Assembly: GCA_024645245.1 (NCBI GenBank)
Contig: JAHEBN010000013.1
Coordinates: 1-42,489, forward strand
Direction: 5' to 3'
Origin: Jiulongibacter sp.
GTDB taxonomy: Bacteria > Bacteroidota > Bacteroidia > Cytophagales > Spirosomataceae
DNA: 42,489 bases
Made by a program: the position numbers and the translations under genes. How positions within the stretch are numbered: position 1 is the first letter of the stretch; the number at the start of each line of letters is the position of its first letter. This document shows positions 10,460 through 17,848 of the stretch, piece after piece. The notes beneath the pieces were generated by a model. That model ran no database searches. It saw nothing but the letters and a program-made list of their open reading frames with translations, and was not told the origin of the DNA.

Positions 10460-10585
10460 TTATATTCAGGCATTTAAATCAGTTTTGTTGATGAATGGTC
10501 AAAATTAACGCTTCACAAATCCACACTAAAAAATGATCTAATAAATCTATTATACGGTTTCTTTAATTATTCAACCTTTTTCAAA

Positions 10586-11308
10586 ATGAAAAAATTATTT
10601 ATCTTATTTGTATTTGCGATTCCCTTTTTAGGATTTTCGCAAAATGAGCCTAAAATTCAAACCCTGATTGATCTACTTGAAACCAACATGGGCGGCCGTA
10701 AAGCTTTTGACAAAACGCATTATATAAGTTGGAATTTTTTCGGATCAAGATCATTAACCTGGAACAAATTTAACGGGGATGTAAGAATCGATTTTCACAA
10801 AGAAAACAGCGTTTATCTCATCAATGTAAATCAAATGTCAGGTAAAATTTTTAAAAATGGTGAAGAATTAACTCAGGCAGATTCTTTATCGAAGTATATA
10901 GAAGCGGGTAAAAAAATCTGGATTAATGATATGTATTGGCTTTTTATGCCATGGAAGCTACGCGATCAGGGAGTAAGTATTAAATACCTGGGAATAGAAA
11001 ATACGGAGGGTGGTGAAAAAGCGGATATGTTGGAATTAAGTTTTGAAAATGTGGGAGTAACTCCGGAAAACAAATACCACATTTTTATTGATCAAAAAAC
11101 AGGACTGGTGTCACAATGGAGCTATTATGCTAAATATGAAGATAAAGATCCCCGCTTTACTATGCCCTGGAAAAACTACCTGACCTACGGTAAAATTTTA
11201 TTATCTGGCGATCGCGGCGAAAGAAAAATTACAAACATTCACGTATTTAGTAAGTTAAATAATGAGGTGTTTGAAAGTTTCAATAAACCTGCTTTCATAA
11301 AAAACTGA
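10586..11308 (+). CDS. secreted protein of unknown function, LolA-like size
   Basis: This is a 240-residue exported protein. Residues 1-19 (MKKLFILFVFAIPFLGFSQ) form a signal peptide with a likely type I cleavage after SQ. The mature part has alternating short beta-type segments: TLTWNKFNGDVRID-like runs, then KYHIFIDQKTGLVSQWSYYA and KITNIHVFSKLNNEVF near the end. It is rich in tryptophan and aromatic residues, which resembles periplasmic LolA/LppX-like half-barrels found as small families in Bacteroidota. That fold assignment is inference; I cannot name the function. It lies 6 bp before hemH on the same strand, so the two are probably cotranscribed. No lipobox cysteine is present, so it should be soluble in the periplasm or released. 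Confidence 0.75.
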   Translation: MKKLFILFVFAIPFLGFSQNEPKIQTLIDLLETNMGGRKAFDKTHYISWNFFGSRSLTWNKFNGDVRIDFHKENSVYLINVNQMSGKIFKNGEELTQADSLSKYIEAGKKIWINDMYWLFMPWKLRDQGVSIKYLGIENTEGGEKADMLELSFENVGVTPENKYHIFIDQKTGLVSQWSYYAKYEDKDPRFTMPWKNYLTYGKILLSGDRGERKITNIHVFSKLNNEVFESFNKPAFIKN

Positions 11309-14389: not shown

Positions 14390-15400
14390 TCATATTGATT
14401 TGATTTTGATGGAACCCAATTGTTTCAATTGACAATCAACTCTAACACTTTGAATTTCCGGATTTTTACGCCTGATCTGATCTAATAATGCCTGTGCAGC
14501 GGCTTTGCCGGTTTTATGTCCCGAATGATAAAAATGAGTAATATTAGGATGCAATAAATAAGGCAGTTTGCCGTCAGAAATACATATAATAGAAATATCA
14601 TCAGGGATTTTATAGCCTAATTTAATTAAACTATAATGAGCAGAAATCATTAACTCATCCGACATGATATAAAGGGCGGTTATATCCTTATTCTTTTTCA
14701 GAAAAGCGGCTAGTAAATTTTCTAATTTATTCATATCCTGTATTAGCAATGACTTACCTTTAAATAGCTTTTCATTCCTTTTTAAACCTTGTTCATAACC
14801 TCCCATTCGCCGACGGGTAATCGGTAGATCTGTATCACCAAAAATTGCCCCGATACATTTGTGTCCGGAATTATATAAATACTCCACAGCCCTTATACTG
14901 ATGTCAACATCATCAATTCCAACAGTAGTAAAGGTTTCATTTTCCCAAATTTTATCAATCAATACTATTGGAGGAGAATCAGCGGCAATTTCAAGAAGTT
15001 CGTTCTTTATATTAAAACCATGCCCAACAGAAAGCAAAATTCCGTCAACAGAAATTTGTTTACAATAATCTATAATGTCCAATTCCTTTTCGAAAGAATT
15101 ATCCGATTGAAAAACCAGTAAAGAATAATTTGCTTCATTTACCAGAGTATTTACCCCATTCATTAATTCGGGAATAAAAAACATGTTGTATTCGGGCAAT
15201 ATGAGGGCAATAAGACCAGAGCTTTTGGTACGTAGATACCTTGCCCTTAGATTTGGAGAATAGTTATACAACTCGCTGGCCTCTCTTACTTTTCTTTTTG
15301 TTTCCTGACTAATATCCGGATGATCTGATAATGACCGGGAAATTGTAGAAACAGACAAGTTGAGCATTTTGGCAAGCTCTTTCAGAGTAATTTTTTTCAT
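14390..15400 (-). CDS. LacI-family transcriptional regulator
   Basis: This is a 336-residue LacI/GalR repressor: an N-terminal helix-turn-helix with hinge (ITLKELAKMLNLSVSTISR, residues 4-22, then LSDHPDISQETKRKVREA) and a periplasmic-binding-protein-like ligand domain from about residue 60. Motifs such as SGLIALILPEYNMFFIPELM, VDGILLSVGHG, RRRMGGYEQGL and ISIICISDGKLPYLLHPNIT are in the expected places. It diverges from the kinase/transporter operon, with a double palindromic operator 87 bp before its start, so it most likely controls both itself and that operon. The effector is unknown, presumably the transported compound or its phosphorylated form. Confidence 0.93.
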   Translation of the reverse strand: MKKITLKELAKMLNLSVSTISRSLSDHPDISQETKRKVREASELYNYSPNLRARYLRTKSSGLIALILPEYNMFFIPELMNGVNTLVNEANYSLLVFQSDNSFEKELDIIDYCKQISVDGILLSVGHGFNIKNELLEIAADSPPIVLIDKIWENETFTTVGIDDVDISIRAVEYLYNSGHKCIGAIFGDTDLPITRRRMGGYEQGLKRNEKLFKGKSLLIQDMNKLENLLAAFLKKNKDITALYIMSDELMISAHYSLIKLGYKIPDDISIICISDGKLPYLLHPNITHFYHSGHKTGKAAAQALLDQIRRKNPEIQSVRVDCQLKQLGSIKIKSI

Positions 15401-15486
15401 ACCTACATCCGATCAAAAGAATATTGAAATAATCATTTTTATTCTGGAATTAATCAAAATCTAAGTTATATAAAAAAAGTTATCCC

Positions 15487-15514
15487 CCGCAAACGTTTGC
15501 ACAAACGTTTGCGG
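15487..15514. promoter_or_regulatory. double LacI-type operator
   Basis: A 28-bp near-perfect palindrome, CCGCAAACGTTTG-CA-CAAACGTTTGCGG, contains two copies of the self-complementary core CAAACGTTTG centred 12 bp apart. The core has the central CG and A/T arms expected of LacI/GalR-family operators. It lies in the divergent region between a lacI-type gene and the kinase/transporter operon. The spacing of about one helical turn would place two dimers on the same DNA face. Confidence 0.75.
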
Positions 15515-15550
15515 AAAATAATAATTTTTTGTTCTCAATCATTAAAATTT

Positions 15551-15796
15551 ACTTTGACTATTCAAAGTTTACATTCTCATAATAAGAATGATATTCTAAG
15601 TTGAATGGTTGAATAAATGGTAATTAGAAATTATGGGTGCTTTGTACCCATAATTTCTTTCTTAATAAAGAAATTTTACCTTCGGGTATTAAAATATAAC
15701 CTGTGATAAATCAATTCTAAAGAGCTGTTAGATTATTAATTTATCTAACACGCTCCGTATTTACCTGCTGGTTCTTAACCGGCAGGTAATTTTTTT
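15551..15796 (+). ncRNA. candidate structured leader or small RNA
   Basis: The plus strand between the operator and the kinase gene contains consecutive inverted repeats. They are ACTTTGA/TCAAAGT (15551-15568); CATTCT/AGAATG (15572-15590); a perfect 13-bp stem AGAAATTATGGGT/ACCCATAATTTCT with a 7-nt loop (15626-15658); AATTTCTTT/AAAGAAATT (15652-15675); TACC-TTCG-GGTA (15677-15688); and TGTTAGAT/ATCTAACA (15726-15750). The run ends in a terminator (15761-15796). The third and fourth stems share 15652-15658 and cannot form together. No protein gene fits here. Either a terminated small RNA or an attenuating 5' leader of the kinase/transporter operon is possible. A weak TTTG / TTACTTTG pair at 15528-15556 has too short a spacer to be called a promoter. 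Confidence 0.4.
15761..15796 (+). terminator. intrinsic terminator ahead of the kinase gene
   Basis: TTACCTGCTGGTT and AACCGGCAGGTAA pair over 13 positions (one G-U) around a CTT loop, directly followed by seven T. It is a textbook rho-independent terminator, but it sits 75 bp before the kinase start rather than after a gene, so it must end a leader transcript or small RNA. Confidence 0.7.
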
Positions 15797-15871: not shown

Positions 15872-16510
15872 ATGATCGGTGACAAGCTAAATATCAGTAA
15901 AGAGTATTTCCAACTGACCAATGAATTGATATGTTATCTTAGAGAAAATAATCTTCTTCATAAGCGTAAGCTGGTAATAGGAATTGGCGGTGAATCCGGA
16001 AGCGGCAAATCGGTAACTTCGATATGCCTGCAAAATGCCTTAATCGAAGAAGGTTTTCCATGTCTTTTAATCGGCATGGACGATTATTTTAAGTTACCCG
16101 CCAAAGACAACCATCACAACCGACAAAAAGATTTAGTAAATGTAGGTCCACATGAAGTACGTCTGGATTTGCTTCAAAAGCATATAGACTCCTTTCTAAT
16201 TGGTGAGGAAAGCATCAATGCTCCATTGTCAGATTACGATGCCAATTTGATTAAAAATCAAGATATTAACTTTTCCAATATTCAAATAATTATTGTCGAA
16301 GGTACTTATGTATTGTCATTACCTAATTTAGATGTAAGAATTTTTCTGGAAAGAGATTACAAGCAAACTCTGGAAGATCGAATAAAAAGAGGAAGGGAAT
16401 CATTCGACCCATTTGTTGAGCAGGTTTTGAATATTGAACACGAAATAATTTCGAAATACACAAAAGTAGCCGATATTGTCATTGACAATGCATTTAAAAT
16501 CAAACCCTAA
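15872..16510 (+). CDS. uridine-kinase-like P-loop kinase
   Basis: This 212-residue soluble kinase is of the uridine kinase/phosphoribulokinase group. The P-loop is GGESGSGKS at residues 39-47. LLIGMDDYFKLPAKDNHHN corresponds to the substrate-side DDFY region of uridine kinases, VGPHEVRLDLL to the following helix, and VEGTYVLSLPNLDVRIFLE to the Walker B and lid-approach segment; RIKRGRESFDP supplies lid arginines. It differs from true Udk in its neighbours and in lacking a CTP/uridine context. It sits 10 bp before an SLC45-like sugar transporter and opposite a LacI regulator, so a sugar, polyol or nucleoside taken up by that transporter is the likely substrate. That is inference. The start is ATG, with no Shine-Dalgarno. 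Confidence 0.82.
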   Translation: MIGDKLNISKEYFQLTNELICYLRENNLLHKRKLVIGIGGESGSGKSVTSICLQNALIEEGFPCLLIGMDDYFKLPAKDNHHNRQKDLVNVGPHEVRLDLLQKHIDSFLIGEESINAPLSDYDANLIKNQDINFSNIQIIIVEGTYVLSLPNLDVRIFLERDYKQTLEDRIKRGRESFDPFVEQVLNIEHEIISKYTKVADIVIDNAFKIKP

Positions 16511-16519
16511 ACTAAATTT

Positions 16520-17848
16520 ATGAAACCAAAATTATCTTTTTGGCAAATAATCAACATGAATGTTGGCTTTTTTGGTATACAATATAGTTTTGGCCTTCAA
16601 CAAAGTGCAGTTAACCCCATTTACGATATGCTGGGGGCATCGCCAGACCAGATACCTCTACTCAATTTAGCTGGCCCAATGACTGGCTTACTTATTCAGC
16701 CCATTATCGGGGCCATGTCGGATAAAACCTGGTCACCAAGATTTGGCAGAAGGAAACCTTATTTTTTTATTGGAGCTTTGATGTGCAGTATTGCACTTCT
16801 TTTTTATCCACTAAGTAGTTCTCTTTGGATGGCCGCTGGCTTGCTCTGGATTTTAGATATGGGAAATAACACCGCCATGGAACCCTACAGAGCTTTTATA
16901 GCCGACAAACTGGATGCATCTCAACAACCTACCGGTTTTCAAGCCCAAAGCTTTTTTACCGGTTTAGGCCAAACTCTCGTAAACCTCTCCATTTTTATTT
17001 TCCCTATACTTTTTATAGGTACCACAGGCTCTTTACCCACTTGGGTTATGGCTTCTTTTCTGCTAGGCTCGGTATGCTCAATTGGGTCTGTATGGTGGAG
17101 TATGCGTACCACCTCCGAAATTCCACCCACTGAAGAAGAATTAGCCGAAATGAAAGCTAACCCTTTAAGTATTCTTTCCCCATTCAAAGATATTTTTTCA
17201 GCCATTAAAGACATGCCTAAAGTAATGTGGCAATTGGCTTTGGTGTACTTATTCCAATGGTATGCCCTGTTTTGTTATTGGCAAAATTCGTCAAAAAGTA
17301 TTGCTCAATCTGTTTGGAAAACCACTAAATATCAAGACAATCCGGTATATAACGAAGCCGTTGGCTGGACAGGCCTTGTGAATGGTTGGTATAATATCGT
17401 CATGTTTTTGGTAGCTTTTAGTCTCGTTTATTTTGCAAAAAAATATTCGCCCAAAATGGTACATGCCTTTTGCCTTATTTTGGCTGGTTTAGGCTTCCTT
17501 GCATTTCCAATGATAGAAAATAAGTATTTGCTTTTCCCGGCAATTACCGGTTTTGGAATAGGCTGGGCAAGTATGATGGGAATTCCGTATCTGATTGTTG
17601 TGGGGGCAATTCCCAAAGAACGATACGGAGTTTATATGGGGATTATCAATATGATGATCGTTATTCCAATGCTTATTCAAACACTTTCTTTTGGGTATAT
17701 TCTAAAGCATTTTTTAAATAATGATCCAGGCAAAGCAATTTCATTTGCCGGAATACTTTTACTAATTGCTGCATTTGCCACTTTACTTATTAAAACCAAT
17801 AAAAATGTAGAAATAGAAGATGTAATGCCCATATCGGGTGGTCATTAG
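16520..17848 (+). CDS. SLC45-like MFS sugar transporter
   Basis: This 442-residue protein with about 12 membrane helices is of the major facilitator superfamily. It resembles the SLC45 / glycoside-pentoside-hexuronide-like group that moves maltose, sucrose and related glycosides with protons. Visible marks are LIQPIIGAMSDKTWSPRFG with RFGRRKPYF in the loop after helix 2 (about residue 74), MEPYRAFIADKL in the helix 4-5 region, and a second-half counterpart around PKERYGVYMGIINMMIV. It is the second gene of the LacI-controlled unit, 9 bp after the kinase. No glycoside hydrolase or isomerase lies in the unit, so the imported compound is probably phosphorylated directly. Substrate unknown. Confidence 0.85.
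   Translation: MKPKLSFWQIINMNVGFFGIQYSFGLQQSAVNPIYDMLGASPDQIPLLNLAGPMTGLLIQPIIGAMSDKTWSPRFGRRKPYFFIGALMCSIALLFYPLSSSLWMAAGLLWILDMGNNTAMEPYRAFIADKLDASQQPTGFQAQSFFTGLGQTLVNLSIFIFPILFIGTTGSLPTWVMASFLLGSVCSIGSVWWSMRTTSEIPPTEEELAEMKANPLSILSPFKDIFSAIKDMPKVMWQLALVYLFQWYALFCYWQNSSKSIAQSVWKTTKYQDNPVYNEAVGWTGLVNGWYNIVMFLVAFSLVYFAKKYSPKMVHAFCLILAGLGFLAFPMIENKYLLFPAITGFGIGWASMMGIPYLIVVGAIPKERYGVYMGIINMMIVIPMLIQTLSFGYILKHFLNNDPGKAISFAGILLLIAAFATLLIKTNKNVEIEDVMPISGGH

Follow-up and report, generated by a model that had tools for sequence, protein, structure and literature searches.

SgrS of Escherichia coli is a small RNA (sRNA) with a length near 230 nt, and its regulator gene, sgrR, is divergent and encodes a protein that is not known to be a LacI repressor. 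SgrS is described as an Hfq-binding RNA induced by sugar stress, the intrinsic terminator of which is read through into the cotranscribed transporter gene setA, in the part of the account drawn on here (PMC4509938). FopS, which is compared below together with GibS, both being sRNAs of Bacteroides thetaiotaomicron, is presented in the excerpted report as a multicopy family consisting of a seed and a terminator that acts on the start regions of polysaccharide operons (PMC11697453). For Flavobacterium psychrophilum, the available sections of the corresponding study report structured 5′ leaders on carbon-metabolism mRNAs, some of them without an Rfam match, together with hints that amino-acid operons are attenuated through leader peptides (PMC9723704). 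The literature that was found says little about post-transcriptional control in Bacteroidota other than Bacteroides, and the search returned nothing describing the LacI-associated leader element reported here.

A predicted leader RNA at the LacI locus

The window, that is, the whole stretch of 42,489 nucleotides analyzed here, is contig C49 of a 4.55-Mb genome (G000) and carries a LacI-family repressor gene divergent from a kinase–transporter operon. Between the two genes lie a twin operator, a Bacteroidota-type promoter, and a predicted terminator-ended leader or small RNA of approximately 235 nt (Table 1). The transcription start at about 15562 is predicted from a promoter motif scan; the Bacteroidota consensus is TAnnTTTG, from which TTACTTTG differs at one position, and the promoter 11-mer ATTTACTTTGA is common to the window and Jiulongibacter sediminis. 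When read towards lacI, the twin operator (15480-15521, minus strand) also folds into a hairpin of 19 pairs with CTTTTTTTAT behind it and is scored as a terminator, which is probably a by-product of operator symmetry.

Table 1. Coordinates of the features discussed (window positions unless a locus is named)
Feature	Position	Strand	Basis or remark
LacI-family repressor gene	14390..15400	-	Pfam LacI HTH + Peripla_BP_3; divergent from leader
Two tandem LacI-type palindromes, CAAACGTTTG x2	15489..15513	.	sequence; centres 12 bp apart
Bacteroidota-type promoter	15528..15556	+	motif scan: TTTG 15528-15531, 17 bp, TTACTTTG 15549-15556
Predicted terminator-ended leader / small RNA, ~235 nt	15562..15796	+	fold z -7.37
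Motif AATGGTTGAATAA, candidate seed GGUUGAAUAA	15604..15616	+	9 nt 5′ of hairpin 1
Hairpin 1, 13-15 bp, then TTCTTAATAA	15626..15658	+	-19.2 kcal/mol; 13-bp arms 15626-15638/15646-15658
Alternative 9-bp stem overlapping hairpin 1	15652..15675	+	-4.2 kcal/mol alone; arms 15652-15660/15667-15675; part of a 12-nt, 92% pair
UUCG mini-hairpin	~15677..15688	+	-2.5 kcal/mol
Hairpin GAGCUGUUAGAU/AUCUAACACGCUC	15722..15755	+	-13.8 kcal/mol; 8-bp arms 15726-15733/15743-15750, 12 pairs with extension
Intrinsic terminator, 12-13 bp stem + TTTTTTT	15761..15796	+	-18.9 kcal/mol; stem 15761-15789
PRK/uridine-kinase-fold kinase, operon gene 1	15872..16510	+	Pfam PF00485
MFS transporter	16520..17848	+	nearest curated model sucrose/proton symporter family, TIGR01301, E 1.5e-22, below cut-off
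Start-region element ATTCAACCT	10569..10577	+	precedes ATG at 10586
TTATTTCAATAGGGTTGAAT block	L345:1492, L346:1492, L353:1492, L342	minus at L342	

An initial annotation had described this region as structured RNA with several inverted repeats, namely the 13-bp, 9-bp, UUCG, and 8-bp stems, and with a terminator of seven T residues ahead of the kinase start; all of these elements were recovered in place. The segment 15562-15797 has a folding energy of -68.7 kcal/mol, its shuffles averaging -38.4 (z -7.37), a value that none of 200 shuffles equaled. The same annotation regarded the 13-bp and 9-bp hairpins as mutually exclusive. Their overlap is real; however, a fold forced to contain the 9-bp alternative reaches -62.0 vs -68.3 kcal/mol overall, and the pair therefore constitutes no balanced switch, since the alternative costs 6.3 kcal/mol. 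A two-state switch between these stems was rejected for this reason.

The placement of a terminator in front of a gene start was surveyed with a home-made terminator scanner and our own ORF caller in the divergent intergenic regions within approximately 825 kb of G000 and Arcticibacterium luteifluviistationis (G020), and it was found in 4 of 94 regions. Each of the three regions other than that of the window contains a short gene overlooked by the ORF caller. Divergent promoters are thus rarely separated from their own genes by a terminator here.

Occurrence of the unit in related genomes

Orthologues of the LacI protein with 53-59% identity occur in three other genomes, J. sediminis (G018), a Cytophagales metagenome-assembled genome (G169), and A. 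luteifluviistationis, which makes four of the 222 family genomes when that of the window is counted; the seven further matches show only 31-33% identity. J. sediminis and A. luteifluviistationis are assigned to the Leadbetterellaceae, Cytophagales, in the NCBI taxonomy. In all four loci the LacI gene is accompanied by the twin operator and by a leader that ends, ahead of the operon, in an intrinsic terminator. Each of the four genomes has a single exact copy of the twin-site pattern, and in every case this copy is at the LacI locus. Orthologues of the transporter are far more widespread (96 of the 222 genomes). Among 30 transporter loci listed for an upstream scan, one was cut by a contig edge and 26 of the other 29 are without a LacI orthologue; neither a terminator nor a twin operator was detected within 500 nt upstream of the transporter in any of these 26 loci, whereas the same 500-nt scan placed both before the first operon gene in all four LacI loci. 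A repressor-controlled, terminator-ended leader is thus predicted with good support from these comparisons.

The leaders themselves differ considerably. Sequences between promoter and terminator are strongly divergent, the shortest leaders have 92 nt, and no fold common to the four loci was found. The z-scores of the leader folds are -7.42 in the window, -3.67 in J. sediminis, -6.23 in A. luteifluviistationis, and -2.62 and -3.28 in the distal and proximal units of G169. The expectation of the initial annotation that the stems would be conserved in relatives keeping the operon was accordingly borne out for the terminator-ended leader and failed for the individual stems of the window, which are not conserved among the LacI-locus relatives. 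Because the leader is conserved together with the LacI/operator unit in all four loci, the broader proposal of a terminator-ended leader, attenuator, or small RNA is supported; its riboswitch-like variant found no Rfam match, and of the options offered, the small-RNA reading has gained the most evidence.

Several features of these loci may be recorded separately. G169 contains two operator-leader-terminator units in one 1.3-kb intergenic region (L051, minus strand, ~3770-3560 and 3005-2820); their operators are about 750 bp apart, the DNA separating them contains no 100-codon frame, and the kinase is missing. A scan of the genome contigs for the kinase gave no match. In family f9 (L047, L048, and L049) a GH100-like gene, a kinase, and the transporter form an operon, with Pfam evidence for GH100 on L047 only; the frame preceding it is one that we take to resemble a TonB receptor, and no LacI frame lies within the 4.6-5.5 kb fetched.

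Transcription of the operon and control in cis

No promoter-like site was found 3′ of the terminator by motif scan in the window or in J. sediminis, and in A. luteifluviistationis approximately 13 nt separate the T run of the terminator from the TTG at which the GH100-like gene is called to start, this start codon being uncertain. Operon expression would therefore need read-through of the leader terminator, which we consider likely on these grounds.

Whether read-through could be governed within the leader was approached through the elements of a classical attenuator. An intrinsic terminator stands between promoter and first gene at all four loci, as such an attenuator would have it; the conserved aptamer or leader peptide that would be expected was not found. 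The segment ~15675-15687 matches the 3′ arm of the terminator, and 11% of shuffles are equally good; over the five leader units, antiterminator pairing was no better than in shuffles (9-97% equal), in agreement with the initial annotation, which had seen no clear antiterminator to the last stem. Antiterminator pairing was rejected as a candidate for that reason. A leader peptide was likewise rejected, the frames at the motif being MVE, MV, MVE, and a 24-codon frame, with no peptide common to the five units.

A candidate seed and its complement in start regions

The 13-mer AATGGTTGAATAA is identical in the window and A. luteifluviistationis leaders, which belong to two genera, and one in 1000 shuffled pairs shares a 13-mer. 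The leaders of J. sediminis and the proximal unit of G169, here called Jiulongibacter-type, share AAGACGAAATGGTTTA before a terminator the stem of which, as judged by eye, varies with pairing kept; none of 1000 shuffles reaches 16 nt. AATGGTT is common to all four leaders and is weak evidence alone (44 of 1000 shuffles equal). The motif lies within 9 nt of a non-terminal hairpin in the window and in A. luteifluviistationis, and in the two leaders of the Jiulongibacter type it immediately precedes the terminator. The predicted ensembles leave it unpaired to a moderate degree only, with probabilities of 0.52 for the window, where this is rank 48 among 224 positions, and of 0.51, 0.67, and 0.42 for the other leaders. 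The possibility that it is a general companion of terminators was rejected, as GGTTGAA was absent from the 30 nt around each of 53 sampled terminators and present there in only 2 of another 57, one of these two probably being hairpin 1 of the window.

The core GGTTGAAT of the motif is complementary to the element ATTCAACC in start regions. In the 40 nt before called ATGs (242 in G000, 225 in G020, 238 in G018, and 213 in a further genome, G033), TTCAACC, the complement of GGTTGAA, was present in 7, 4, 4, and 3 start regions, respectively, and on the opposite strand of the same sample in none. It ranked first among 210 words of the same composition in all four genomes (tied in G020 and G033), with a pooled count of 18 vs a mean of 1.92. 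Conversely, the motif word was the best of 277 words of the window leader against the G000 start regions (p 1e-4, uncorrected for the 277 words), and motif words were second and third among leader words against those of G020. Jiulongibacter-type leaders have AAATGGTTTA instead of GGTTGAAT; this motif is unremarkable against start regions, and the complement of its stretch showed no clear enrichment in those of G018. TTCAACC is joint top in G033, which is without this leader, and other partners must therefore exist.

Genome-wide, the pattern ATTCAACCY-N3-22-ATGAA was found 32 times in G000 vs 3 for the reversed pattern and 28 vs 6 times in G020; in a sample of 148 genomes from the order that did not include G020, G000 ranks first, and the next counts are 19, 15, and 14. 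One such element lies within the window itself, where ATTCAACCT and the two preceding bases are perfectly complementary to the leader motif over 10 nt (duplex -14.9 kcal/mol). A frame of 194 codons or more begins at 27 of 30 start-element loci (L299-L328); L301, L308, and L311, which have no reading frame, were left out of the Pfam counts, and 20 of the remaining 27 were tested. Carbohydrate-type families were assigned to 13 of these 20 genes vs 1 of 20 random controls (Fisher 7e-5), the category having been defined after the genes were seen; the 13 comprise sulfatase, 3-keto-disaccharide hydrolase, GFO/IDH/MocA, MR/MLE, AP_endonuc_2, and OMPdecase families. A smaller sample, which comprised 17 start-word genes, is less uniform, with 6 in the same family list and one GH26 beside PSCyt cytochromes, a TonB receptor, a response regulator, a dicarboxylate symporter, and a transposase. 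The idea that ATTCAACC is part of a promoter was rejected, since no fixed -7 distance exists in the 30 loci; as the element also follows the apparent stop codon of an upstream frame in some of them (for example L310 and L313, by eye), it more likely acts on RNA.

Other candidate terminator-ended RNAs with the core

The full pattern AATGGTTGAATAA-N15-45-T6 was present in 7 of 222 genomes vs 4 for the reversed control, which is unconvincing alone and made sense only through the shorter core and inspection of the hairpins. With GGTTGAAT-N8-38-T7, the numbers of rows were 10, 8, 6, 10, and 4 in G000, G020, G018, G169, and G033 vs 3, 2, 0, 0, and 3 for the controls, some places being double-counted through longer T runs. 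Among 26 inspected places, 13 fold into hairpins of -13 kcal/mol or lower, and most of these 13 lie a short distance behind a frame on the same strand. Another 9 were flagged because they represent a ATTCAACC-ATG pair seen from its opposite strand, and the remaining ones fall in neither category or inside frames. Terminators preceded by GGTTGAAT, counted by eye, numbered 5 in G000 (0.58 expected), 5 in G169 (0.71), 3 in G020 (0.33), and 2 in G018 (0.6), where the terminator density is an assumed one for G018 and G169 and the word rate of G169 is taken to be like that of the others. Two of the G000 places, in C66 and C215, are start-pattern hits seen from the opposite strand, so that these counts overlap with those of the start pattern.

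A candidate RNA that combines the block TTATTTCAATAGGGTTGAAT with a terminator, the stem of which varies without losing its pairing, is present in all four genomes. It is located downstream of a gene matching AMPK1_CBM in three of the four, above the curated cut-off in one, and that of G020 (L353) has a 21-nt perfect complement in the start region of a kelch gene (L321). The eight loci searched, those of this RNA included, gave no Rfam match.

Possible mode of regulation

The operator, the terminator, the conservation of the unit, the complementarity, and the enrichment can be read from the sequences, and from them we infer the transcription, the read-through, the identity of the sugar, the pairing, and the direction of its effect as follows. 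A sugar-responsive LacI repressor would bind the twin operator over the leader promoter, and in the presence of the inducing sugar, which is probably sucrose-like, the short RNA would be made. Most transcripts would end at about 15796, and a fraction would continue into the operon of kinase and transporter. The terminated RNA would probably be active itself, as GGUUGAAUAA, just 5′ of the hairpin, could pair with the (U)UAUUCAACC elements that many carbohydrate-degradation genes have immediately ahead of their start codons; such pairing would damp the translation of these genes while the sugar is available. This repressor-controlled leader or sRNA, which would resemble SgrS-setA and FopS and supply the operon through read-through, is the best reading overall, and we advance it tentatively. 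Action in trans through GGUUGAAU is plausible, if still shy of probable, for the window and Arcticibacterium; for J. sediminis it is unsupported because the Jiulongibacter-type leaders are without the exact core. A wider extension is more doubtful, namely a seed code in these Cytophagales in which a family of terminator-ended GGUUGAAU RNAs would pair with ATTCAACC before the start codons of dozens of carbohydrate-degradation genes, so that the LacI leader would join a post-transcriptional carbon-catabolite network; one family member would be the conserved RNA in the 3′ UTR of the gene with a glycogen-binding module, and another the RNA under the LacI repressor of the window.

The main rival is that the terminator acts in cis only, as a regulated second control on the LacI-repressed operon governed by an RNA-binding protein, leader translation, or some ligand, and without any action in trans. 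The terminator-ended leaders of all four LacI loci, their proximity to the first gene in G020, and the structured leaders and attenuation clues in the cited part of the F. psychrophilum work (PMC9723704) would fit such an attenuator; however, the five leader units offer no antiterminator beyond shuffles, the leader peptide is not conserved, and the alternative stem is energetically unfavorable, and we consider this reading somewhat unlikely. Rather less probable is a passive terminator that would only reduce or insulate expression, the fraction read through being fixed and the motif incidental. The lack of a switch and the strong divergence between promoter and terminator agree with it, whereas the 13-mer and 16-mer that leader pairs share before the hairpin (1 and 0 of 1000 shuffles) and the way in which the unit tracks LacI in the loci examined argue against it.

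Two further possibilities carry little weight. The 29-codon frame from 15616 (MVIRNYG...) could be a small protein gene with its own terminator, in line with the overlooked small genes at the other three divergent-region terminators, but the five leader units have no peptide in common, which makes this highly unlikely. A metabolite riboswitch, to which the strong folding might point, is the most improbable of all: the leaders of the four loci, some as short as noted above, have no common fold, LacI already supplies sugar sensing, and the Rfam search suggested by the initial annotation assigned the window to no described family (0 matches, with RsaOG as the best weak match at 23.7 bits vs a threshold of 50), and the riboswitch reading was rejected on that account.

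Should the repressor-controlled leader with activity in trans prove true, it would provide a concrete sRNA regulon, with seed, targets, and inducible promoter, for carbohydrate use in environmental Cytophagales, in which one sugar repressor would govern an uptake operon and, through a single RNA, other catabolic genes.

Comparison with described systems

The leader resembles those of F. psychrophilum in being a structured leader before carbon-metabolism genes in Bacteroidota; the sections of that study cited here describe no LacI-twin-operator unit and no common seed (PMC9723704). Its layout, a predicted terminator-ended RNA ahead of a transporter operon, would fit that of SgrS-setA, and it differs in that a kinase stands before the transporter. 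Unlike FopS and GibS, which belong to another class of Bacteroidota, the RNAs considered here gave no Rfam match, where the Rfam copy searched may hold no FopS model. A possible likeness to FopS would lie in a candidate seed complementary to the start regions of carbohydrate genes, which is supported for the window and A. luteifluviistationis and not for the Jiulongibacter-type leaders, and the distinguishing feature is that one candidate member would be placed here under a LacI repressor, ahead of an operon.
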